Positions 8,616-59,885 of a stretch of DNA of 64,000 nucleotides are shown here, piece after piece. This stretch comes from Candidatus Aenigmatarchaeota archaeon. GTDB taxonomy: Archaea > Aenigmatarchaeota > Aenigmatarchaeia > GW2011-AR5. A model generated the notes under the pieces. The model searched no databases and was not told the origin of the DNA. It worked only from the letters and a program-made list of their open reading frames with translations. The stretch lies in the NCBI GenBank assembly GCA_016193585.1, contig JACPRW010000010.1:40962-104961 (forward strand), given 5' to 3'. How positions within the stretch are numbered: the stretch's first letter is position 1; every line of letters starts with the position of its first letter. Position numbers and translations under genes: made by a program.

Positions 8616-8764
8616 TATAGTGAACCAAGTAAACAATCAGGTATTATATCTTGGTTCACTTACACGCAAAAAGCAAAGCTTTTTGGTGCACCGGAAAACC
8701 TTGTTTTCCGCGTGTAGCGGACAACAAAAGTAATATGTTGGTATTCTTTTGTTGGTCCACTATA
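8616..8764. repeat. Dispersed hairpin element E2
   Basis: Starts TATAGTG and ends CACTATA. Outer hairpins: GAACCAAG/CTTGGTTC (8616-8660) and GGACAACAAAAG/CTTTTGTTGGTCC (8719-8758, one bulge). Between them TACACGC/GCGTGTA (8661-8717) encloses AAAAAGC-AAA-GCTTTTT and GGAAAACC-TT-GTTTTCC. The AAAAAGC hairpin recurs inside both rRNA genes. Confidence 0.82.
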
Positions 8765-9009: not shown

Positions 9010-9175
9010 GGGCCGGTAGTCTAGTAAGCTTTTTGGGAAAAAGCTTAACCAAAAACTTGGAATATGGTTATCTGCAAAGACCCGGGATCTTTGAGATCTT
9101 GGTTGCAGAATTGCAACCACAGATGACGCCACGCTTACAACGTGGAGACCGGCAGTTCGATTCTGCCCTGGCCCA
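9010..9175 (+). tRNA. tRNA-Val(TAC) with two introns in the D-arm
   Basis: Acceptor GGGCCGG/CTGGCCC, anticodon arm CCACG-CTTACAA-CGTGG (TAC = Val), T-arm GGCAG-TTCGATT-CTGCC. The D-region is split: TAGTCTAGT, about 40 extra bases (9026-9065), GGTTAT, about 50 extra bases (9072-9121), GATGACGCC. Removing both gives a normal archaeal D-arm. The first intron contains CTTTTTGGGAAAAAG, shared with a 23S insertion. Exact splice sites are provisional. Confidence 0.8.
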
Positions 9176-11300: not shown

Positions 11301-11420
11301 GCTCCGTTAGTCTAGCCCGGTCAAGGATGGTGGCCTTTCGACGACCTTTTTTGGAAAAAAAGCTCGACCAAAAAAGCGGGAGCAAAGCCGCAGACACGGG
11401 TTCGAATCCCGTACGGAGCA
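11301..11420 (+). tRNA. tRNA-Glu(TTC) with an intron at the canonical site
   Basis: Acceptor GCTCCGT/ACGGAGC, D-arm TAGTCTAGCCCGGTCAAGGA, anticodon stem GTGGC/GCCGC around CTTTCGA (TTC), T-arm ACGGG-TTCGAAT-CCCGT. About 45 extra bases (11341-11385) follow anticodon-plus-one, the canonical 37/38 archaeal intron position. The intron begins with a CCTTTTTTGGAAAAAA hairpin resembling the tRNA-Val intron hairpin. Confidence 0.9.
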
Positions 11421-17650: not shown

Positions 17651-17976
17651 ATTCCGGTTGATCCCGCCGGAGACTACCTTTATCAGGATTCGGCTAAGCC
17701 ATGCGAGTCACTGCCGCAAGGCAGGGCGAACTGCTCAGTAACACGTAGCTAATCTGCCCTCAGGAAGGGGATAACGCCGCGAAAGTGGCGATAATACCCT
17801 ATAGGCGATAGAGGCTGGAAGGCGCTTTCGCCAAAAGCCGCAAGGCACCTGAGGATGAGGCTGCGGCGGATTAAGCTGTTGTTAGGATAAATGCCTAACA
17901 AACTTATAATCCGTACGGGTCGTGAGAGCGATAGCCCGGAGAGAGGTGGTTAACTTTAAATTTTCCCTGAGGCAAG

Positions 17977-18916
17977 TACCTGTATGCATGTGAATGAAAG
18001 ACGCATGTCAAGATTTATAGGGTATCTGTTCAGTGATGGGAGTTTAAGACGCAAAAAGAATAAAATGGGAATAGAACAAGTAGAAGTTTCGATAGAGTGT
18101 GCAGATCTAGCGATAGTGCAGGATTTTCGGCAACTTTGTAGCGACATTTTAGGAAGAAACGTTGGGAAAATAACCAAGAGAAAACGTGATAAAAACTGGA
18201 GAGCCAGCTACAGCTTTTATTGCAAGTTAAATAAAGAGTGGAGAAAGTTTTTGTTTAGCATGTCACCAACTTTTAGAACTTCTCCATGCCTGGTTAACCT
18301 CCACGGCGGTAAGCTGTGTCAGAAATGTTTAACAAAACACTATAAAGACACGACGTACCCGGGGATTAAAATCCCAAGATTCGTTTATAAAAGCAATAAC
18401 AACATAAAGGATTTTCTTCAGGCATTCACAAATTCAGAAGGAAGTGTTCAGTTAAGAGCAAATAGACATGGCAAATGGCTTGAGTTTTCAAGACATATAA
18501 AGATTTCAACTGAACATCCGCTGCTATTAAAAGGAATTTCTAGGATGCTGAAAACCCTTAAAATAAATCATAGATTTGTGCCGAAAACAAACCCAAATTC
18601 AGTGATAATACAACAAAAAGAATCGATCAAAAAATTTCGAAAATTAATTGGATTCATGGGTGGCATCAGAATAACCCCAACGGGTATCTGGGGAAACTAT
18701 GAAAAAACAAAAATTCTAGATGCAATAATAAAGACATTCGATTTTGATCGAGGATTTCTGCAAACATTTTTAGATGATAATGAAATATACTCTTTCATAA
18801 AAGTTAACCACCTCCCGGATATGGCTTCTGAGATTTGCAGAATAGAATCTCTGAAGTAAGAATGCTCTCATTGAGCCGCATTCTTAGGCTTGCTGTTCTG
18901 CGAACAGAAAACATAA
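17977..18916 (+). other. 16S intron 1, LAGLIDADG-encoding
   Basis: Interrupts the helix-11/12 region between CTGAGGCAAG and AGCCAGGCTCTACGG. Base composition inside is much more AT-rich than the flanking rRNA. Probably an archaeal bulge-helix-bulge intron; ends are approximate. Confidence 0.82.
17984..18859 (+). CDS. LAGLIDADG-type homing endonuclease in 16S intron
   Basis: 291 residues. Motif 1 is RFIGYLFSDGSLRR (about residues 6-19), motif 2 FLQAFTNSEGSVQLR (about 145-160), so a two-motif monomer. The acidic residues are D (FSDG) and E (NSEG). Would cut an intron-less 16S allele and spread the intron. AT-rich coding sequence unlike the neighbouring genes, consistent with mobility. Begins 7 bases inside the intron. 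Confidence 0.88.
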   Translation: MHVNERRMSRFIGYLFSDGSLRRKKNKMGIEQVEVSIECADLAIVQDFRQLCSDILGRNVGKITKRKRDKNWRASYSFYCKLNKEWRKFLFSMSPTFRTSPCLVNLHGGKLCQKCLTKHYKDTTYPGIKIPRFVYKSNNNIKDFLQAFTNSEGSVQLRANRHGKWLEFSRHIKISTEHPLLLKGISRMLKTLKINHRFVPKTNPNSVIIQQKESIKKFRKLIGFMGGIRITPTGIWGNYEKTKILDAIIKTFDFDRGFLQTFLDDNEIYSFIKVNHLPDMASEICRIESLK

Positions 18917-19075
18917 AGCCAGGCTCTACGGAGCGCAGCAGGCGCGAAACCTTTCCAATGCGCGAAAGCGTGAGAAGGGAATCCTGAGTGATTTCGCGCG
19001 AGCGAAATCTTTTCTCTAGTCTAAACAGCTGGAGGAATAAGTGGTGGGTAAGACGGTTGCCAGCCGCCGCGGTAA

Positions 19076-19157
19076 TTTGCAGAATCGACGCACGATTCAG
19101 TCTGGCATCGCATGGATTTCAGGCGATTCTGAAATTTCCGGTTCTGCGAACCGTAAA
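19076..19157 (+). other. 16S insertion 2 (about 80 bases)
   Basis: Lies after CCGCGGTAA and before ATAACCGCGCCACGAG, in the 530 loop region. Contains hairpins GAATCG/CGATTC and GGTTC-TGC-GAACC. No ORF. Probably a short spliced intron; location at the decoding site makes retention unlikely. Confidence 0.75.
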
Positions 19158-19234
19158 TAACCGCGCCACGAGAGGTAGTCACGATTATTGGGCCTGAAGC
19201 GCCCGTAGCCGGGCTGGTGTGTCTCTGGTGAAAT

Positions 19235-19300
19235 TCGCAAAAAGCAGAGCTTTTTGGAATTTGCTGTTCGCAACTTCCGATGCTTCATTTGCGAACACCA
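19235..19300 (+). other. 16S insertion 3 with AAAAAGC hairpin
   Basis: Between TCTCTGGTGAAAT and ATCCGGCAGCAAAC (helix 22-23 region). Contains AAAAAGC-AGA-GCTTTTT, followed by a GTTCGCAA...TTGCGAAC hairpin. The first hairpin is the same as in intergenic element E2 and in a 23S insertion. Confidence 0.78.
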
Positions 19301-19896
19301 AATCCGGCAGCAAACTGTCGGGCTTGCTGGAGATACTACCAGTCTTGGGACCGGGAGAGGCCGATGGTACGTTACGGGTAAGGGTAAAATCTTTTAATCC
19401 GTAACGGACCACCTGTGGCGAAGGCGATCGGCTGGAACGGGTTCGACGGTGAGGGGCGAAAGCTAGGGGAGCGATCGGGATTAGATACCCCGGTAGTCCT
19501 AGCTGTTAACGATGCCCGCTTGGTGTTGCATGTCCTTCGTGGACATGCAGTGTCGTAGCGAAGGCGATAAGCGGGCCGCCTGGGGAGTACGACCGCAAGG
19601 TTGAAACTTAAGGGAATTGGCGGGGGAGCACTACCAGGGGTGGAGGCTGCGGTTCAATTGGATTCAACGCCAGGAACCTGACCCGGGAAGACAGCAGAAT
19701 GAGGGTCACTCTGAAGGGGTTACCTGACAAGCTGAGAGGTGCTGCATGGCCGTCGTCAGTTCGTGCTGTGAAGTGTCATGTTAAGTCATGAAACGAACGA
19801 GACCCGTGCCGCTAGTTGCCACTCCCTTCTTCGGAAGGGAAGCACTCTATCGGGACCGCTGGTGCTAAACCAGAGGAAGGGACGGTCGACGGCAGA

Positions 19897-20725
19897 TAGG
19901 GGAAGGTGAATCTACAAATACTAGCCTAAACAAGGTTAGTATATGCCTCCAACGTCAGTATCTTTACATCAAATTAGAAAGATGTTCAGAGACGTTAAGA
20001 AACTGACAAAAGATTTCAGAGAAATAAAGCCAGAATTGATTGAAAATGATGCATCCAAAATACTAATCTTGCGCTTGGCTCTCCAAATGTCGCAAAATAA
20101 TTTTGAAACATTTGTCGGGGCTGAAAACAACAAGAATATCAGCAAGTATGAAAGGGGCATCATAAAGAAAATGAAAGCGAAAACTGCAGAAAAGTACATA
20201 GAAAAGATTAAAGGAAAACTAAAAGAAAATGTAACAGAAGAAAATGTACTTCTGGCTTACAAAAGAATGGCTTCTGAATCAAATGGTTTCTTCAAAGCAA
20301 ACCAAGGGACTAAAAAAGTTCTCTTGGCCCAAAGAAAAGGTGCAATAAATTCATTGCGTCTCAGATCGACTGAACAGGAAATGTCTGTGATGGCTTTTCT
20401 CGAGTCTAACGGACTTAATCCAGAGATAAATTTTCCATTAGACGAAAACAAAGGCATCATAACCGACATCTTTCTACGAGATCATCATATAGCAATTGAA
20501 TGTAAGGATATCAAAACAAAAAGCTACAAAGAGCACAAAAATAACATACGGCTTCTTGCATATCAAGGTTATAGAATAAAATTTAATTTCAAAACACTAA
20601 AACTTGCTGCATTCGTGAAATCTAACTTCGCAGTAAGTCAGAGAGACCTTGAAGAATTGAAAGGACCTTATGATTTTGTTTTTACTGACGTTGGAGAGCT
20701 GAAGCATATCATCGTCCCCTAGCCG
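19897..20725 (+). other. 16S intron 4 with non-LAGLIDADG ORF
   Basis: Between GGTCGACGGCAGAT and GTCAGTATGGCCCGAA (near E. coli 1200-1220). A GAT is present at both junctions, so ends are uncertain by three bases. AT-rich inside. Confidence 0.82.
19943..20722 (+). CDS. Putative PD-(D/E)XK-type homing endonuclease with helix-turn-helix, in 16S intron
   Basis: 259 residues. No LAGLIDADG motif. Residues about 45-75 (RLALQMSQNNFETFVGAENNKNISKYERG region) look like an XRE-type helix-turn-helix. Residues about 140-185 give RSTEQEMSVMAFLESNGL, then the spaced acidic motif TDIFLRDHHIAIECKD: D...E-C-K as in PD-(D/E)XK/Vsr-like nucleases. Such nucleases are known as homing endonucleases in some bacterial and phage introns. 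Inference from motif only. Confidence 0.7.
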   Translation: MPPTSVSLHQIRKMFRDVKKLTKDFREIKPELIENDASKILILRLALQMSQNNFETFVGAENNKNISKYERGIIKKMKAKTAEKYIEKIKGKLKENVTEENVLLAYKRMASESNGFFKANQGTKKVLLAQRKGAINSLRLRSTEQEMSVMAFLESNGLNPEINFPLDENKGIITDIFLRDHHIAIECKDIKTKSYKEHKNNIRLLAYQGYRIKFNFKTLKLAAFVKSNFAVSQRDLEELKGPYDFVFTDVGELKHIIVP

Positions 20726-20894
20726 ATGTCAGTATGGCCCGAATTCCCTGGGGTTACACGCGGCCTACAATGCGTAGGACAATGGGATGCGATGCCGTGA
20801 GGCAAAGCCAATCTCCTAAACCTACGCTTAGTTCGGATCGGGGGCTGCAACCCGCCCCCGTGAAGCCGGAATCCCTAGTAAGCGAAGGTCATCA

Positions 20895-20990
20895 TGAATG
20901 CGCGTTCGCAGGATGATTGGTCGTGCATGCGGCGGAGTGTAACGCTGCGTGCAGTGCAGCACAATGACATGTTCGCGCGTCCGTGAACTC
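20895..20990 (+). other. 16S insertion 5 (helix 43)
   Basis: Extra bases between TCCCTAGTAAGCGAA and TTCGCTGAATGCGTCC, which themselves close helix 43. Contains several GC-rich hairpins, no ORF. Could be an intron or a lineage-specific expansion. Confidence 0.65.
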
Positions 20991-21002
20991 TTTCGCTGAA
21001 TG

Positions 21003-21034
<32 letters not shown>

Positions 21035-21105
21035 GCCATCCGAGTGGGAACTTGGTGAGGCGTGCGTTGAGCACGTCGAATCAAGTTTCTGCAAGGAGGG
21101 CTAAG

Positions 21106-21270
21106 AGCTCTTCTGTTCGCGCAAAAGAGCGAGCATTCGTAAAGTAACGAATGGGCGATTTGATTTGCTGGGTATGTAGATTACAAGGCTTGACCCTGAA
21201 CCAGCAGAGATGACAGGACTGAAGCGGCAGTGACGACGTGTTCGTCACTCAGTATCCAGTCGTTGCTCGG
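21106..21270 (+). other. 16S insertion 6 near the 3' end
   Basis: Separates AGGAGGGCTAAG from ACAAGGTAGCCGTACGG, normally joined by TCGTA in archaeal 16S. About 165 bases, hairpin-rich, no ORF. It interrupts the helix 44/45 junction, so it must be spliced if the gene is functional. Could be two adjacent introns. Confidence 0.72.
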
Positions 21271-21317: not shown

Positions 21318-21467
21318 TTTTTTCTCGAAAGAGCTTCGGCTCGAGTAGGGAAAAAGAAACGTGTGCGTTCTGATAGTAAGCCAAATCACCGGAAGCTGCG
21401 GCTTCCGTGATTTCCCGGAAAGTTCTGCTTTCCGAGGAAATGCTCATACCTCTGTCCTTAACCTTTT
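21318..21467 (+). other. 16S trailer with processing helix 3' strand
   Basis: Bases 21441-21457 (TGCTCATACCTCTGTCC) pair with 17587-17603. Inside lie hairpins CGGAAGC/GCTTCCG within AAATCAC/GTGATTT and CGGAAAG/CTTTCCG within ATTTCC/GGAAAT. Confidence 0.8.
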
Positions 21468-23258: not shown

Positions 23259-24035
23259 GAAGATAGCTAGCTCCCACGCTGTCAGGTGGATAGCTCGGTT
23301 CGCGAGGCGACGAAGGAGGTGGCAAGCTGCCGTAAGGTGCGGCAAGGCGCATGCAGCCTTTGAACCGCACATCTCCGAATGGCACATAGCCGACAACTCG
23401 CGGAAGACAAATCGACGCACCCTCAGGTGCGTCAAGTCGCTTTCTGCGAGAGCGAACGCAGAGAATTAAAACATTTTAGTACCTGCAGAAAGAGAAAGCA
23501 ACAGCGATCTCCCCAGTAATGGCGAATGAAAAGGAGACAGAACAAACCGAAGCTCCCTGGAAACAGGGTAGCGATGTGGAGAGGGCAGGGGCCGTTCTTC
23601 GTTTGCCGACCCGAAGTGTGCTGGAACGCACTGGTACAAAGCGTGATACCCGCGTAGGGGAAGGCAAAAAAGAATATGCCCTGCTGCACGAGTATGGCCG
23701 GCCGGATAGCCGGTCAGAATACGGGTCTCATCTAGACCCAATTCTAAACACTCCGCGAAACCGATAGTGAAGTAGTACGGTGACGGAACGATGAAAAGAA
23801 GGGGTAACACCCGATGAAAAAAGCTTGAAACCTGGCAGCTATCGTTTGTTGGGTAAGGCTCCCGCAAGGGAGAAGAATCCAACGTCCGTTTTGAATAACG
23901 GGGCAGGGAGTTCATGGCAGTGGCGAGGCTAAGCGCTTCACGCGCGGAGCCGGAGCGAAAGCGAATGCGCGCAGGCAACAAGGCGCACCGTATGAAAGTG
24001 CGGAAGTCACTGCCCTGAGACCTGAAAATTTGGGA

Positions 24036-24867
24036 GTGAGTGAAGGTTTGCTGGCTCGATGGGCTTATTTTTCTTTTGCTGAAGCGAAATTAAGATAAGC
24101 CCATCTTGCCCAATAAGTCTATGGAAGCGAGAGATACGTTGATGGCTCGGCTCATAGCTTTGTTGCTTACCGATGGCGGACTTTGTGGAATAGGTAAAAG
24201 GTGGCGGATTCATTTCACGTCAAATTCAGAACAATTGGTAAGTGAATTCCAAGCACTGGTAAAGAATCTTTTCGATCTCAAAATGGTAAAAGACTATCGG
24301 AAAGGTGCATGGAGAATTCAGACATGGGTGAGCAATAAAGTGAAAGAAGAGCTTTTAGCATATTCCAAAACGTATAGAACGCTTTCTATAGAGGAAAAAG
24401 AGACGGAAGCTGAAATACCGGCTTTTATCAGAAACGACAAAGAACTTGCACGCGAATTCCTAAAATATGCATTCACGGCAGACGGGACAGTAATTTTCAA
24501 CATCGGAAAAGCACGGTATGGCTTTAGGTTCGATAGATGCGTGAAATTATATTCCGAGCACGCCCGTCTGAGAAACCAGTATTTCGAACTTTTGCAGAAA
24601 CTTGGTTATAGACCGGTCATGCTTAAAGATGCGGTGCTGCTAAGAAAGCCAACCAACATGACTAAGTTTGCAAACGAAATTGGTTTTGTAGAAGGTGTAA
24701 AAATTTCAGGCAAAGGTTTATGGAAAGGTATTACAAAAGACCGATTAACGGAATTCGCCGCAAATTCGTACAGTTTGAAGCCGAAAAAATTGGGGAAATC
24801 AAAAGCTGACATTCATGCGAACCTTGTAAATCTCATTCTCAAATCAGGAGACCAGATGATCTAGCCC
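24036..24867 (+). other. 23S intron a, LAGLIDADG-encoding
   Basis: AT-rich segment carrying a GATGGGCTTAT/ATAAGCCCATC hairpin just before the ORF. Flanked by CGATGGGC and CCTGGGCAAGGCGACG. Ends approximate. Confidence 0.75.
24121..24864 (+). CDS. LAGLIDADG homing endonuclease, 23S intron a
   Basis: 247 residues from ATG 24121 (a TTG five codons earlier is possible). Motifs RLIALLLTDGGLC (about residues 9-21) and FLKYAFTADGTVIF (about 115-128), two-motif type; both catalytic acids are Asp. AT-rich codon use compared with the host genes. Confidence 0.87.
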   Translation: MEARDTLMARLIALLLTDGGLCGIGKRWRIHFTSNSEQLVSEFQALVKNLFDLKMVKDYRKGAWRIQTWVSNKVKEELLAYSKTYRTLSIEEKETEAEIPAFIRNDKELAREFLKYAFTADGTVIFNIGKARYGFRFDRCVKLYSEHARLRNQYFELLQKLGYRPVMLKDAVLLRKPTNMTKFANEIGFVEGVKISGKGLWKGITKDRLTEFAANSYSLKPKKLGKSKADIHANLVNLILKSGDQMI

Positions 24868-24957
24868 TGGGCAAGGCGACGCTGGGCGAAAGCTCAGTAG
24901 AAGCCTGCTACCGAACATAGTACAAACTTGTCGGGTGACCTGGGGTTAGGGGTGAAA

Positions 24958-25280
24958 TTCAGGGAGAAGAAGACTTAAGAAGATGTCCGTGAAAATGCGA
25001 GGAATGGGAACATGTGAGTATTGCAAACGTCCTGTATCGCCATTCGGCGATATGTCACGAGGGATACCGGGCCCATCGTATGCACTGCTGGAAGATGGTA
25101 AAGAAATAGCATTTTGCGGGGTTCCTTGTGAAATGTTCTATGTGCTGGAAACGGGCACTTCGCTCAGAAAAACTGATGGAAGACCGAATGAAGCATTTCC
25201 AAGCGATATTGGAAGTGAAGGCATCGCGGATCCTAAACATCCTGGATATAGCAAGAACTAGTTCTCTCTGAACACCAAAA
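24958..25280 (+). other. 23S insertion b with small zinc-finger ORF
   Basis: Between GGTTAGGGGTGAAA and AGCCAATCGAATC. A CAGGGAGAAG...CTCTCTG inverted pair is near the two ends. Position corresponds to the conserved GGTGAAAGGCCAATC stretch. Confidence 0.75.
24983..25261 (+). CDS. Intron-encoded small zinc-binding protein (92 aa), not LAGLIDADG
   Basis: MSVKMRGMGTCEYCKRPVSP, then IAFCGVPCEMFYVLE: two CxxC-type pairs (CEYC, CGVPC) forming a likely treble-clef/zinc-ribbon, followed by a Gly/Pro/Ser-rich tail ending HPGYSKN. Treble-clef zinc sites occur in HNH nucleases, but the HNH catalytic residues are not evident. Possibly a remnant or novel intron-associated protein. Confidence 0.5.
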   Translation: MSVKMRGMGTCEYCKRPVSPFGDMSRGIPGPSYALLEDGKEIAFCGVPCEMFYVLETGTSLRKTDGRPNEAFPSDIGSEGIADPKHPGYSKN

Positions 25281-25629
25281 GCCAATCGAATCTGGTTATA
25301 GCGGGTTCCTTCCGAAATGTATCTCAGTACAGCCTCGTCTTGGGTAGATAGTGGGGTAGAGCACTGATTAGGCAGTCAAGGAGGGAGACTTCCACCTGTC
25401 TTGTCAAACTCCGAATCCATTATCGCGCAGACGGGAGTGAGCATGCCGGAGTAATTTTGGCATGCGAGAGGGAAACAACCCAGACCATGGTTAAGGTCCC
25501 TAAGTAGCTGTTAAGTACACCGAAGGTAGTCCTGAATCTCAGACAACGGGAAGGTTGTCTTAGAAGTAGACATCCTATAATCAACGTGTAATAACGGACC
25601 CGCCGAGATTCAGGGCGCTGAAAATAAAC

Positions 25630-25677
25630 TTTTTGGGAAAAAGTTTAATCAAAAACCCAGAATGTTTGTCAGCAAAA
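25630..25677 (+). other. 23S insertion c: CTTTTTGGGAAAAAG hairpin module
   Basis: Lies between GGCGCTGAAAA and AATGGACGGGG. About 48 bases with hairpin AAACTTTTT-GGG-AAAAAGTTT, then TAATCAAAAAC and GAATGTTTG. Same module as intron 1 of tRNA-Val (9026-9065), with G-C replaced by A-T in the stem. Confidence 0.78.
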
Positions 25678-25857
25678 TGGACGGGGTTAAACAGCTCACC
25701 GATACCATGGGCACTGCACCCGCAGTGTGGTAGGGAGGCGTGCTGCGAGGGCAGAAGCTTCTCCGTGAGGAGGGGTGGACCTTGCAGCAATGAAGATCCT
25801 GCCGGGAGTAGCAATCAAGTCGGGCGAGAAATGGCAGGAGAAGGTATATGAAAGTTT

Positions 25858-26175
25858 CTGATAGAGTAAATAGTACTGATAAATAGACTTGAAATAAGGT
25901 TTTCCACATGCATCAGTATAGGCTTAGTCTAAAAAGATGGAAAATTTCAAGTGAATTGCCGCGTATAGCAGGCGAGTTTTATGAAGCAGTACACAAACGG
26001 CAACTCTGGGATAATTTAAGACCCGAATTATCAATTAAACCTGATGGGCCTTATGTCAATACGTGCCATCTTAGAGTCAGGAAAGGATTATACCCAGCTA
26101 TTTATTCTATGGCAGATTCTTACGATTTAGAAATAGAAGATACAACATCTTTGTTTCTACGACTTAAGTTTTGGT
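25858..26175 (+). other. 23S insertion d with 89-aa ORF
   Basis: AT-rich stretch between AGGTATATGAAAGTTTC and CGACCGCCTGAGGGGCC. The right boundary could extend to about 26200. Confidence 0.6.
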
Positions 26176-26177
26176 AA
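25908..26177 (+). CDS. Intron-encoded hypothetical protein (89 aa)
   Basis: Begins MHQYRLSLKRWKISSEL; basic, with LSIKPDGPYVNTCHLRVRKG in the middle. No LAGLIDADG, HNH or GIY-YIG motif seen. The fragment ADSYDLEIEDTTSLFLRLKFW closes it. May be a degraded homing endonuclease or a new small intron protein. Confidence 0.42.
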   Translation: MHQYRLSLKRWKISSELPRIAGEFYEAVHKRQLWDNLRPELSIKPDGPYVNTCHLRVRKGLYPAIYSMADSYDLEIEDTTSLFLRLKFW

Positions 26178-27016
26178 TTCTTTCTCCTCCACTCAATTCC
26201 CGACCGCCTGAGGGGCCAGGGTTTCCGCTTAAAGCTTATCTGAGCGGAGTTAGCCGGTCCTAACCGCGCTCTTACGAAGACGCGTGGGAAAGGGAAACAG
26301 GTTAACATTCCTGTGCCATCCAGTGTTCGTCAATCCTGCGGTAAACGCTTCAGGATAGTCCGAGTATGGTCGTCGCCATATCCAAGCCTCGAAGCCGGGG
26401 GAGTGTAGTAACTGCGAGAACCCGGTGAAAGGGTGACGGGACTGATGTATGTCGGTTTTGGACGACTCCCGGAGCCCATGAAAATACTGCAGAGTAGAAT
26501 GCTGGGTGCCCGTACCCAGAACCGACTGTTTAGTTGATGTACTCAACTAAATCGGGAAACAGGTGCCCCTCGCTGAGAACTGAAAAGAGAAGTGTAAACG
26601 CACAGGCAAGAAGTACTCTGAAACCAGCGATCCAGAGCGGTCGATAAACTATGTAGCCAAGCCTGCCAGTGCACGAAACTGGAACTTCTTTTCTTTTCAC
26701 TCAATGGCGAAGGTGTTCGGGAGAATCCGCCTTAGGGAATTCGGCACGAATTGTTTGTTCATGCAAACATTCCCGTAAAATTAGCCGGGTATCTTTGGTA
26801 GAACCGGTGCCTAGTCAGGGATGACTAGGTCGCAGTGACAAGAGGGGTCCGACTGTTTAACAAAAACATAACTGACCGACAAGCCGAAAGGCCTTTTATG
26901 GTCAGCGAGTCGTGGCCACTAGCGGTGTGTGAAACCCCATTCCAATGGGTCTATGCCCCGCTGTAGGCCGGCCCTAACTCTGAGGGTCTTAAGGTGACAA
27001 CGTTGCCTTAGTAAAA

Positions 27017-27291
27017 TTTGGCTATATGCGGGAACATCTTGGTGAAGCTTCAGTAGGCAACTGCTGTGGCGACACGGCAACAAAACCTAACAATCTGAAG
27101 CCAAGAGACAATCCGCAGGAAAGGCTTCTCTTTTGGAGAAGAATCCCCAGAGACTGTACGCCAGACTCTTCAATCGGAAGAGAAGATACAGTCCGAACCT
27201 CACGGTGACGTGAGGAGGCGCCAGCGAGTGCCCGCCTTTCACGATAATTATCCGAACCAATGTGAAAGGTTCCCAAGCAACAGAATTGAGC
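27017..27291 (+). other. Group I intron in 23S rRNA
   Basis: Contains the group I core: GACAATCCGCAGGA (27110-27122; P3/P4 region), GAGACTGTACGCC (P7 5' strand), P8 hairpin CTCTTC-AATC-GGAAGAG and AAGATACAGTCCGAACC (P7 3' strand, G-binding site), ACTGTA pairing with TACAGT. Inserted after CTTAAGGT, at the conserved helix 68-71 region near E. coli 1920-1931. No ORF. Self-splicing type, distinct from the protein-spliced introns in the same gene. Ends are approximate. Confidence 0.82.
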
Positions 27292-27312
27292 GTAATCCCT
27301 TGCCAACTAAAT

Positions 27313-27366
27313 TGCAAAAAGCAAAGCTTTTTGGGATCCCCGAAAAGCCATGCTTTTCGTAGATAT
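27313..27366 (+). other. 23S insertion f: AAAAAGC double-hairpin module
   Basis: Between CCAACTAAATT and ATTGGCCTGCATGAT. Two hairpins: AAAAAGC-AAA-GCTTTTT and CGAAAAGC-CAT-GCTTTTCG. The first is identical to that of intergenic element E2. Confidence 0.78.
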
Positions 27367-27626
27367 TGGCCTGCATGATAGATTCACGAGATCCCTGCTG
27401 TCCCGAGGCGGAACCCGGCGAAACCATTTTTCTGGTGAGTAGGCCAGAGACCTCTAGTGGGAAGAGTAGACCCCGTGGAGCTTTACTGTAGTCTGATGTT
27501 GTGGTATGCGTATGAGTGTATAGCGTAGGTAGGAGGCGTCGAAGCCCTGCTGTAAGGTGGGGTGGAGCCGGCGATGTAACACTACCCATTCAAACGCATA
27601 TCGCTCACTTCGCGAGAAGGACACCA

Positions 27627-28280
27627 TCAGATGGACAGTTTGGCTGGGAATTCAAGAGAGGCTAACGAGTTTTTGGCAATCCCAAATTTAGGCGAGTTGC
27701 TATCAGACACAAGGCTCTCATCCAAGAACCCTGAAACTGAAAGAAAGCGCTTGCAGTTGTCAAATCCGGTGATGAGCACAGCCCTGCCGGTCAACCGGCA
27801 CTGTATGTCAAGCGTGGCAAGGCATTCGGCGAGGTGCGTTCTGAGATGCGGATAGTAGCAAGTAATTTCAACTCTGAGTATGCTGTATTTTTTGTTGGCA
27901 TACACTGAACCGTCGCCAGAAGCAAACCCCCTGAGAAAAGCTGCCGCAAAGCTCCTGTCGGTGCGTATAGCAACAGGAACGTTGCAGGTACCTTTTCTAT
28001 AGTGGGGATGCTTTGCTTCCACGCCGTTTCCGGGGATTGATAAGGAAATCAAGGCTCTAGCAATTGGTGAGGAAAAGAACCTCACCGAAACCGCATTGGT
28101 GCATTTGTTTTCGTGAAACCTGCTGATACCGAAACAGTCATGCGCAAGTTTCATGAAAACGTGCCTCAAGCCTTGAAGCTTATTGGTAAATTGGATGCAA
28201 TACGTGCGTTTCGATTTGTCATAATAAATTGAGCCGTCTGATAACAACAAACCGAGAAAAGTTGCCATCTTTTCGTCCAT
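27627..28280 (-). CDS. LAGLIDADG homing endonuclease encoded antisense to 23S rRNA
   Basis: 217 residues from ATG 28280 (MDEKMATFLG). Motifs ATFLGLLLSDGSIYY (residues 6-20) and FLRGFASGDGSVYA (about 115-128). The frame stays open 65 codons upstream, but that part lies over exon and intron end. The last eight codons, down to 27627, run into the rRNA exon. It needs its own promoter because rRNA transcription gives the antisense strand. Confidence 0.84.
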   Translation of the reverse strand: MDEKMATFLGLLLSDGSIYYDKSKRTYCIQFTNKLQGLRHVFMKLAHDCFGISRFHENKCTNAVSVRFFSSPIARALISLSIPGNGVEAKHPHYRKGTCNVPVAIRTDRSFAAAFLRGFASGDGSVYANKKYSILRVEITCYYPHLRTHLAECLATLDIQCRLTGRAVLITGFDNCKRFLSVSGFLDESLVSDSNSPKFGIAKNSLASLEFPAKLSI

Positions 28281-28365
28281 GATGCTTGTTTGCTCCCTGT
28301 GTTTATAGGTGCTTGCCGAGCACATGAAGACTGAAAAGTCGATGAGTTTACTCTCTTGGGTCAGC
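27652..28365 (+). other. 23S intron g carrying an antisense ORF
   Basis: Between CAGTTTGGCTGGG and GGCGGTACGCTTTTGAAAGG (near E. coli 2250). The only long ORF is on the minus strand. Confidence 0.8.
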
Positions 28366-28576
28366 AGGCGGTACGCTTTTGAAAGGATATCAAAAGCCCC
28401 CAAAGTTCGGCTTGGCAGGGTCAGAAATCCTGCGGTCAAGTGCAAGCGCAAATGCCGGATTGACTGGACTCCCAACAGTACGGTGTCCAGCGTCGAAAGA
28501 CTGGGCTAGCGATACGCTGGTTGGCCTAGATGGCTGCCAGTGACATGAGAAAAGCTACCCCGGGGATAGATTTATA

Positions 28577-29165
28577 CGTCGGTGTGCACAAGTTAAGCGA
28601 ATGCAAGAAAAAGGTTTCATCTTGGGTGCAACTGAAGACGGTATACTCTACTACAGAGAGAATAAGAATGAATATGGCCTAGAAATCGAACAAAAAGTAA
28701 TGGAATGGCTGTTAGTTGTCCAGGAAGCGCTGAAAATTGCCTATAACAAGCAATCCAGAATAAGGAAAATGAAAAAGGGCTATTATAGGTTGAATGTGTA
28801 TTCAAAATCGCTCTATCATGAGCTGGTTGGATTACGAAACAACCCACAGCGCATTCTTGAGCAACCAGAAGCATTCCAGACTGGCTTCCTTCAAGGTATT
28901 TTTGATGCAGAAGGAAGCGTTCGATTAGATAGAAACCATATAAGCGTCAGCTCAAATAGGGAAAGTCTGATAAGCCTAGTTACTTTCCTGTTAGTCAAAA
29001 GGGATATAATTGCAGGAAAACCATGGCAAGATTCAGCTGGCGTGATATCTCTGTCAATATATGGCATAGATGATATCAAGAAGTTCTCTGATTTAGTAGG
29101 ATTCAGGCACCCTGAAAAAAAGCATAGACTTCAACTTTTAGTGAATGGTGTATAAATCCCCTATA
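28577..29165 (+). other. 23S intron h, LAGLIDADG-encoding
   Basis: Between GCTACCCCGGGGATA and ATGGTGTCGTAGCGGG, in the peptidyl-transferase region (near E. coli 2450). ATTTATA and TATAAAT flank its two ends. Confidence 0.8.
28601..29155 (+). CDS. LAGLIDADG homing endonuclease, 23S intron h
   Basis: 184 residues, small. Clear second motif FLQGIFDAEGSVRLD (about residues 104-118); the first motif is weak (KGFILGATEDGILYY, about 4-18), so this may be a diverged two-motif protein. AT-rich. Preceded by TTTATACG 25 bases upstream. Confidence 0.82.
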   Translation: MQEKGFILGATEDGILYYRENKNEYGLEIEQKVMEWLLVVQEALKIAYNKQSRIRKMKKGYYRLNVYSKSLYHELVGLRNNPQRILEQPEAFQTGFLQGIFDAEGSVRLDRNHISVSSNRESLISLVTFLLVKRDIIAGKPWQDSAGVISLSIYGIDDIKKFSDLVGFRHPEKKHRLQLLVNGV

Positions 29166-29196
29166 ATGGTGTCGTAGCGGGTGAGAGTTCTCATCC

Positions 29197-29456
29197 GCGC
29201 TCTTCTTGAGGAATAACGCTGGTAGTGACGAGAATATACCCGTCCCAGTATGAGCGCCGCTTCGCGGCGCGGTGATTACAGCAGGGTAGCTTCTGAACCA
29301 GGCGAAACGTTGTTCCGCAAACACTAGCTAGATGAAGAGCTCATAGCCTTCGAGCCGTCGAAGGCGCTCAGAGCTGTCGTTAGTAAGCAGAACCGAGAGC
29401 CGTGGAGGTCTCGGAACTGCGAGCGAAGCGAGTGGTTCTGAGTGCGGAGAACAGAT
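29197..29456 (+). other. 23S insertion i (about 260 bases, no ORF)
   Basis: Separates GGTGAGAGTTCTCATC from CGACCCCGCGTG, which are contiguous in ordinary 23S. GC-rich and strongly folded (for example GCGCCGC/GCGGCGC, CCGAGAGCC/GGTCTCGG). Group I core motifs were looked for and not seen. Confidence 0.65.
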
Positions 29457-29508
29457 CGACCCCGCGTGTTGCGGCGTCGCTGTCGGCTGGGCCTCTCCTG
29501 GCTGTGCA

Positions 29509-29626
29509 GCAAAGAAATAAGGCGAACATCTTGCTTGCCCTCAACCGTTTGACACGGCGGATAGCCTCGTATGAAGAACGGCGTTACAAGCGGGATAAGA
29601 ATAACGCCTTGTTTCTCTGCATGCAG
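29509..29626 (+). other. 23S insertion j (about 118 bases, no ORF)
   Basis: Between TCCTGGCTGTGCAGC and GCAGCCAAGGGTGACGG, normally adjacent; GCAGC is present at both junctions. Contains GGCGTTA/TAACGCC. Confidence 0.68.
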
Positions 29627-30008
29627 CCAAGGGTGACGGAGTTCACGTATTAAAAGGCCACCTTAGCTGGGTTCAGAACGGCGTGAGCCAGTTTGGTCTA
29701 TATCTGCTAGAGGTGTTACTGCCTGAGGGAAAGGAGGGATAAGTACGAAAGGAACATCCCTTCGTGGCCTCTAGTTTACCTGCTGTCTGACAAGGCATGC
29801 AGGGTAGCCACGCCATACGCTCATTAGGGCTGAAGGCATCTAAGCCTGAAGGAGCTCTCGAAAAGAGGCAGATGGTACGCGCAAGACGACGCGGTATGGG
29901 AGCGGGGTGTACGCACCGAGCTTCGGCGAGGTGTTCAGCCCACGCTTCCCTACACCAATGCTAGCCTTCAAATGGCGCCAGTTGCGGCTGGCGCTTCCTG
30001 GAAACAGG

Positions 30009-32542: not shown

Positions 32543-32573
32543 CTCATCTTTACGGAAGGTGATTCCACATTGC

Positions 32574-32699
32574 TCAGAAAGCGTAGCTTTCTGGCATCTG
32601 CGGAGAAGCTTTGCTTCTCCGCATATCCTCCTTTATTATTTCATTTAGCTCTTGCTCTAAGAAGTCGCGGACGTTAGGCCTTTCCATGAGCTTGTCCAT
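32574..32699 (-). CDS. Possible small protein (41 aa)
   Basis: MDKLMERPNVRDFLEQELNE then IIKE, an amphipathic helix as in some small antitoxins or regulators, ending in a hairpin-encoded tail (CAGAAAGC/GCTTTCTG and GAGAAGC/GCTTCTC). No start signal evident; weak. Confidence 0.22.
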   Translation of the reverse strand: MDKLMERPNVRDFLEQELNEIIKEDMRRSKASPQMPESYAF

Positions 32700-59631: not shown

Positions 59632-59885
59632 TATACTAAACTGCGAAACTTATATGACGCAGATTCGCAGTTTGTATACAGATATAGCAATACAAGGAAA
59701 TAAACACGATACGAGGAGAATCGAAGATTCTCCTGTACAGGTGGATTCATGGAATCCACCTTGTATGACTTCCTTGTTTGCTATACATGGTGAAACAACG
59801 TTTCACCTGTACAGGTAAAGCTTTGCTTTACCATGTATGTGAAACAAGAAGTAATATGTCGGTATTATTTTCTTGTTTCACTATA
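59632..59885. repeat. Compound hairpin element E7
   Basis: Four units: TATACTAAACTGCGAA/TTCGCAGTTTGTATA (59632-59678); TATAGCAA...TTGCTATA (59683-59785) enclosing GAGAATC-GAA-GATTCTC and GGTGGATTC-ATG-GAATCCACC; ACATGG/CCATGT (59786-59836) enclosing GGTGAAAC-AAC-GTTTCACC and GGTAAAGC-TTT-GCTTTACC; and GTGAAACAAGAA/TTCTTGTTTCAC ending CTATA (59839-59885). Inner hairpins are joined by CTGTACAG palindromes. Confidence 0.85.

Follow-up and report, generated by a model that had tools for sequence, protein, structure and literature searches.

The AAAAAGC-ARA-GCTTTTT hairpin that occurs in intergenic DNA and in the 16S and 23S rRNA genes of this archaeon is half of a module of about 52 bases, made of two inverted triloop hairpins about 25 nt apart. 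Comparison of sequences indicates, with good confidence, that it is a building unit of a mobile, non-autonomous DNA element of about 52 bp (the doublet), for which a scheme of insertion, array formation and tolerance can be proposed. This reading draws on the structure of the doublet, its copy number, empty and filled sites, alleles that carry it in frame, and its spread over several archaeal lineages. The window analyzed here is a stretch of 64,000 nucleotides from the draft genome of an archaeon (1.17 Mb, 10 contigs), and all genomes compared are drafts.

Recurrence of the hairpin

The preliminary description reported one hairpin shared by an intergenic repeat (E2), the 16S gene, and the 23S gene. 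This was confirmed at 8667-8685, 19238-19256, and 27315-27333, one or two bases from the coordinates first given. The E2 and 23S hairpins (hpA, forward strand) are identical, CAAAAAGC-AAA-GCTTTTTG, and the 16S hairpin on the same strand reads CAAAAAGC-AGA-GCTTTTTG, with a single loop base different. A second hairpin had been reported to follow in all three places, and it does, but it is of the same type only in E2 (hpB, CGGAAAAC-CTT-GTTTTCCG, 8692-8710, forward strand) and in 23S (CGAAAAGC-CAT-GCTTTTCG, 27341-27359, forward strand). Both have an 8-bp stem and a triloop, and the two hairpins of each pair are 25-26 nt apart from start to start. The second hairpin in 16S is unrelated and has a longer loop.

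The pattern AAAAGC-N1..10-GCTTTT has five matches in the window, compared with 0.05 in shuffled sequence. Genome-wide, the exact AAAAAGC-ARA-GCTTTTT hairpin occurs 33 times, while the control (the pattern read backwards) has no occurrence; these two comparisons rule out a simple chance hairpin. Allowing a wider loop added only one site in the genome. Thirty-one of the 33 exact hairpins lie within a dispersed intergenic repeat of about 150 bp (E2 type), and the remaining two are the 16S and 23S copies. An origin by chance or as a metagenome assembly artefact is therefore extremely improbable. The draft is in 10 contigs and repeats favor misassembly, but the 23S copy comes with a second hairpin of its own and with exact flanks, and an independent genome (G062) carries an orthologous 16S insert.

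Architecture of the doublet

The E2 doublet (8661-8716, forward strand) reads TA-CAC-g-(hpA)-GTG-CAC-(hpB)-c-GTG-TA and has 31 near-identical copies in the genome. It lies in a composite intergenic repeat, TATAGTG...CACTATA (8616-8764, about 31 copies in the genome), which consists of a flank hairpin, the doublet, and another flank hairpin. In the E2 fold the outer stems are 3-4 bp long, and a one-base bulge lies on the 5' side in the first hairpin and on the 3' side in the second. Because the bulges are on opposite sides, the two halves are mirror images, and a model of the doublet matches both strands of each copy. Seventy perfect hairpins were found by scanning the window, compared with 13-20 in five shuffles. 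Five hairpin pairs, with starts at 8667 and 8692, 27315 and 27341, 32575 and 32599, 59714 and 59739, and 59789 and 59814, have stems of 8-11 bp, triloops, and starts 24-26 nt apart.

In an alignment of 11 doublets of equal length, 98.8% of cells are paired, partly by construction because the stems served as the selection criterion; the outer stems and the bulge did not, and they provide independent evidence. Nineteen of 22 pairs change on both sides, and there are only two G-U cells. The scarcity of G-U pairs fits palindromic DNA better than a constraint on RNA, and together with the changes on both sides it suggests selection or copying as DNA.

A covariance model (CM) was built from one alignment whose rows were checked against genomic DNA, and it locates the module six times in the window. 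E2 (73.4 bits, E 4e-16, CM R1) and the doublet at 59783-59838 (67.8 bits) were training rows; the 23S copy, with 50.2 bits, was not. The 59783-59838 doublet, ATACAT(GGTGAAAC-aac)TGTACA(GGTAAAGC-ttt)ATGTAT, joins two larger hairpins, and 12 further copies of this type were read. An intergenic doublet at 32569-32625 (CAGAAAGC-gta / GGAGAAGC-ttt) scores 50.7 bits, a divergent doublet in the 16S-23S spacer (21384-21440) scores 32.0 bits, and the hpA copy in 16S scores 27.7 bits over 19232-19275. Another doublet, at 59710-59765 (TA + 52 nt + TA), interrupts the loop of a larger hairpin. The doublets read in the host genome are mostly inside or between larger TATAG...CTATA hairpins, forming intergenic mosaics.

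Insertions in rRNA genes and introns

The rRNA genes of the host are very long (16S 17651-21143, as matched; 23S 23262-29969). The 23S insertion is in helix 71 at 27311-27364 (forward strand, AT + 50 nt + AT). Relatives read CCAACTAAATATTGG or similar at this site, and the host reads CCAACTAA-AT-(50 nt)-AT-ATTGG. Without 52 nt, the host sequence equals that of G058 exactly (26/26), with a 2-bp AT duplication. In 16S helix 21 the host reads GGTG-AAAT-(65 nt)-AAAT-CCGGCAG (19231-19303, forward strand, net 69 nt), and empty sites read GGTTAAATCC in G069, GGTGAAATCT in G073, and GGTGAAACCC in G060. The 16S insert is common to the host and G062, and it is absent from G069, G058, G060, G073, and G078. 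In the G062 ortholog, CAGAAAGC/GCTTTCTG replaces CAAAAAGC/GCTTTTTG, and a further doublet lies inside the insert. The 16S insert is the older one and occurs in another genus too, and the near-identity of its hairpin to hpA is partly the general consensus of the unit, given the G062 reading. The rRNA genes of G062 and G064 also hold doublet copies.

Since the sites are filled in some relatives and empty in others, E2 and the 23S insert are best read as copies of one mobile, non-autonomous element. The link between the intergenic hairpin family and the rRNA insertions, as first drawn, holds in full for E2 and 23S, which are complete copies of one element recovered by the CM; in 16S only the first hairpin fits. 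The sites are linked by the 52-bp doublet and not by the complete intergenic repeat, which is about 150 bp long.

It is a serious possibility, though one we lean against, that the hairpin is instead intron content and that the intergenic copies are secondary. At the 16S site, a predicted bulge-helix-bulge (BHB)-like fold pairs exon GGTG with intron CACC (4 bp); each strand has an AAA bulge next to this pairing, and the intron forms a 7-bp helix (TTCGCAA/TTGCGAA). Cuts at AA|A on both sides would restore GGTGAAATCC, and the enforced fold, at -40.2 kcal/mol, is within 1.4 of the minimum free energy of -41.6 kcal/mol. The helix is kept in G062, with a C to U change that gives a G-U pair. A copy also lies in a tRNA intron, and the 23S site holds homologous inserts of greater length in other genomes of the order. 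However, the host 23S insert does not have the ends of the longer inserts. Its BHB-like pairing has a 3-bp center, and symmetrical cuts do not restore the 7-base loop. The predicted folds thus make a weaker BHB case for the 23S copy than for the 16S insert, and on this pairing BHB splicing of the 23S copy was set aside as improbable. Splicing would also leave the in-frame 54- and 108-nt copies in protein genes and the intergenic copies unexplained.

The longer helix-71 inserts, AUAAGCC...GGCUGUAA, resemble BHB introns. They were seen in three genera, at loci L109, L110, L111, and L119 (genomes G064, G063, G062, and G073, respectively), and are absent from G058, G061, G069, and G079. The G064 insert contains its own doublet. 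The 23S copy is preceded, at a short distance, by a group I intron (26965-27215). Within the 16S and 23S inserts, ORFs at 17984-18859, 24106-24864, 27627-28475, and 28601-29155 resemble intron-encoded homing endonucleases (putative), and another ORF is at 19943-20722. A second recurrent module (9011-9175, 25625-25690, 11301-11420) consists of a hairpin, CTTTTTGGGAAAAAG, followed by a CAAAAAC-type segment. It is found in a tRNA-Val-like intron and a 23S insert, and a tRNA-Glu intron has it as CTTTTTTGGAAAAAAAG.

Insertion polymorphism and protein genes

A survey of insertion sites in related genomes had been proposed as a check. In addition to the empty sites at 23S helix 71 and 16S helix 21, it revealed presence/absence differences between G062 and G063, and the host genome holds an empty site of its own. 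The doublet starting at 59714 in the window reads GATA-(52 nt)-TA-TGACTT, and the empty site elsewhere in the same genome (L026) reads GATATGACTT (30/30 match), giving a 54-nt copy with a TA duplication. Genomes G062 and G063 are about 96% identical in the stretches compared. Several 54-nt doublets, and forms of 107-108 nt with four hairpins, are present in one of the two and missing in the other, and copies occur in either orientation. The AT duplication in 23S and the TA duplication at 59714 are clear two-base duplications. Duplications of ATC and AAAT also occur, and three G063 cases have an ambiguous junction or AC as the right-hand repeat.

Four of the G062/G063 polymorphic copies are in frame in protein genes, so that an in-frame insertion exists together with an allele lacking it, which is a feature of the Rickettsia type of element; all such cases seen are in these two genomes and none in the host genome. 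In an MFS transporter the insert reads PPMKDAD-LGRSEASPRSQKAALFED-IVQKEV, the protein has 413 aa with the insert and 395 aa without it, and the Pfam MFS_1 match spans the insert. The other in-frame inserts are SHPR-(18 aa)-LTDIG, AFKKGG-(36 aa)-GSILERMGYA, and MGEY-(18 aa)-VTLPEPP. The last of these genes has a separate one-base deletion in G063, and it may be inactive there. Another gene, which carries a 36-aa insert, matches DNA_alkylation in two stretches, and solved AlkD chains have about 33 residues fewer at that place. Of the six frames, four or five are open in the G062/G063 elements and all six in E2; random doublets of the same shape reach at least five in about 8% of cases. Not every insertion is neutral, since at least one polymorphic copy (L159, near 1008) would end or alter a reading frame.

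Other polymorphic elements were seen in the same two genomes. Elements of 119 bp with two hairpins and ACCGACT...AGTCGGT-type cores (L180/L170 and L152/L186) distinguish G062 from G063, show an exact AT duplication, and apparently form a separate family. At L191 (6816-6909), G063 carries a 92-bp TATAG...CTATA double hairpin that G062 lacks; it seems to have entered a TTAA target and duplicated TA.

These data also bear on a functional RNA motif under selection, such as a protein-binding site, a terminator, or an rRNA expansion element. The sequence of hpA is conserved in several archaeal lineages and the 16S copy shows a compensatory change, as such a motif would predict. However, the doublets matched no Rfam family at the gathering score, which removes known RNA families as candidates. 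Of two near-identical genomes, one can have a doublet that the other lacks, and doublets lie in either orientation and inside protein genes. We therefore regard this explanation as very unlikely.

Distribution among genomes

The preliminary description had named a simple element widespread in unrelated genomes as the finding that would speak against its view. Searching 84,980 species genomes for an exact 20-mer gave 25 places, 20 of them archaeal, mostly with the full module, and five elsewhere. Nearly all the archaeal records carry DPANN lineage labels (Nanoarchaeota, Pacearchaeota, Woesearchaeota, Micrarchaeota, or DPANN group), and four are from SM23-78, which NCBI lists as unclassified Methanobacteriota. 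Archaeal matches continue into a second hairpin (not obviously in L055), and most score at least 33 bits with the CM; L056 and a contig-end copy in L048 score 26-28 bits. The five matches outside archaea score 21-28 bits and lack the second hairpin. One archaeal copy (L040) is in the anticodon-loop intron of a tRNA gene. In L058 (about 2700-2830) the 3' end of a 16S gene is present as a tandem duplicate, and a doublet interrupts the second copy.

In the phylum, the exact stem with any loop was found in 10 of 156 genomes, eight of them in the family of the host. CM matches were found in 18 of the 19 family genomes, with 139 in G000, 124 in G062, 113 in G063, 85 in G060, 74 in G064, and none in G069; these counts are rough, as both strands were counted and at most 150 candidates per genome were scored. 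G069 has no match though its 23S gene is the most similar to that of the host (92% identical in the stretch compared).

Candidate mobilizing enzymes

Two mobilizer families, Y1 (PF01797) and DDE_3 (PF13358), were searched. REP/REPIN elements consist of two inverted bulged hairpins and occur in many copies and arrays. The doublet likewise is an inverted pair of bulged hairpins with many copies and arrays, and Y1 genes are present in seven of the 19 family genomes, including G062 and G063, so a REPIN-like element moved by a Y1 (HUH) transposase was considered. It is unlikely. The Y1 profile search gave no match in G000, G060, G064, and G066, which carry 18 to 139 CM matches; G064 (74 matches) is in two contigs and is 90% complete. 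In addition, doublet copies are found inside genes and with a short duplication, and Y1 elements are described as inserting without target duplication. Y1 transposase was thus rejected as the mobilizer. IS630-type DDE_3 was also rejected, being present in two of the 19 genomes only, the copy-poor G070 and G071. Viral contigs in IMG/VR had no exact 20-mer match, and a viral vector was likewise set aside. At three contig ends of G062 (C2 6-98, C3 117685-117783, C4 548760-548858) there is a Y1 transposase fragment, which suggests a multicopy IS that breaks the assembly.

Discussion

In the mobile-element scheme, the element would be two inverted triloop hairpins, each with a one-base bulge above an outer stem of 3-4 bp. 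It would insert into DNA with duplication of usually two A/T-rich bases, with a net gain of 52 or 54 bp. Two to four hairpins of about 27 nt, arranged in an array, would then give forms of about 54, 81, and 108 nt. Insertions in RNA loops, introns, and protein genes of relatives may be tolerated because each hairpin folds on itself and the sequence is open in most frames and usually has a length divisible by three. In the host genome, one doublet lineage would have been amplified inside the larger intergenic hairpin elements of the E2 family, with single copies placed in 23S helix 71 and the rRNA spacer and an older related insert in 16S helix 21. We infer that transposition occurs at the DNA level, that tolerance accounts for the spread, and that an enzyme mobilizes the element in trans.

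A broader proposal is doubtful and is offered tentatively. The doublet might represent an element class across several archaeal lineages, mostly DPANN, with a nearly unchanged hairpin. It might move via folded DNA or RNA (endonuclease-primed or RNA-mediated insertion) and be tolerated in every kind of gene product as self-contained, mostly stop-free hairpins of about 27 nt.

By analogy, the doublet seems to work like Rickettsia palindromic elements (RPEs) and the GC clusters of fungal mitochondria, and to differ from them in size, modular triloop units, host group, and sites in rRNA genes and tRNA introns. RPEs are palindromic and non-autonomous, and their many copies sit in frame within protein genes that are unrelated to one another (PMC10969869; Ogata et al., 2000, cited there). 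The doublet shares these features, in a comparison of descriptions rather than of sequence. However, RPEs are about 150 bp and bacterial, whereas the doublet is 52-54 bp (modules of about 27 nt), archaeal, and also found in rRNA genes and tRNA introns. Fungal mitochondrial GC clusters and double-hairpin elements are described as short hairpins, flanked by AG or ACT repeats in yeast, whose units merge and shuffle and whose mobilizer is not established (PMC4478555; Paquin et al., 2000, cited there). The doublet is also a short hairpin element with short flanking direct repeats and with merging and shuffling of units. The clusters are organellar and GC-rich, whereas the inverted triloop pair with the conserved CAAAAAGC stem is specific to the doublet.

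REP, REPIN, and BIME sequences are small multicopy palindromes in composite intergenic mosaics, and REPs are extragenic and linked to Y1 (RAYT) transposases (PMC2817692, PMC3733652). The doublet is a small palindrome of this kind, but it is also intragenic (G062/G063), and Y1 is absent from copy-rich genomes. Archaeal MITEs are non-autonomous inverted-repeat elements with a short target duplication (PMC10969869). The doublet is likewise non-autonomous and built of inverted repeats, and the duplications at its target sites vary (AT, TA, ATC, or AAAT) and are absent or mutated in some G063 cases; it differs in that no autonomous partner was found among Y1 and DDE_3 proteins and in that its outer ends vary while the internal hairpin is conserved. 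Archaeal rRNA genes also carry BHB and group I introns (PMC6125680). The doublet occupies the same rRNA neighborhood, with a group I intron upstream of the 23S copy, but it has no intron catalytic core and occurs also outside RNA genes. No description of palindromic elements in DPANN archaea was found in the open literature, which is weak evidence as much literature lies outside that search.

With the doublet, archaea have an element comparable to the palindromes in Rickettsia protein genes and to the hairpin elements in the mitochondria of fungi; each of these belongs to a small genome or an organelle. Because insertions are polymorphic in sister genomes, the boundaries of the element, its choice of target, and the tolerance of proteins are directly accessible. 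In these archaea the doublet is a further origin of insertions in rRNA and tRNA genes, with consequences for rRNA annotation and for surveys that rely on primers.
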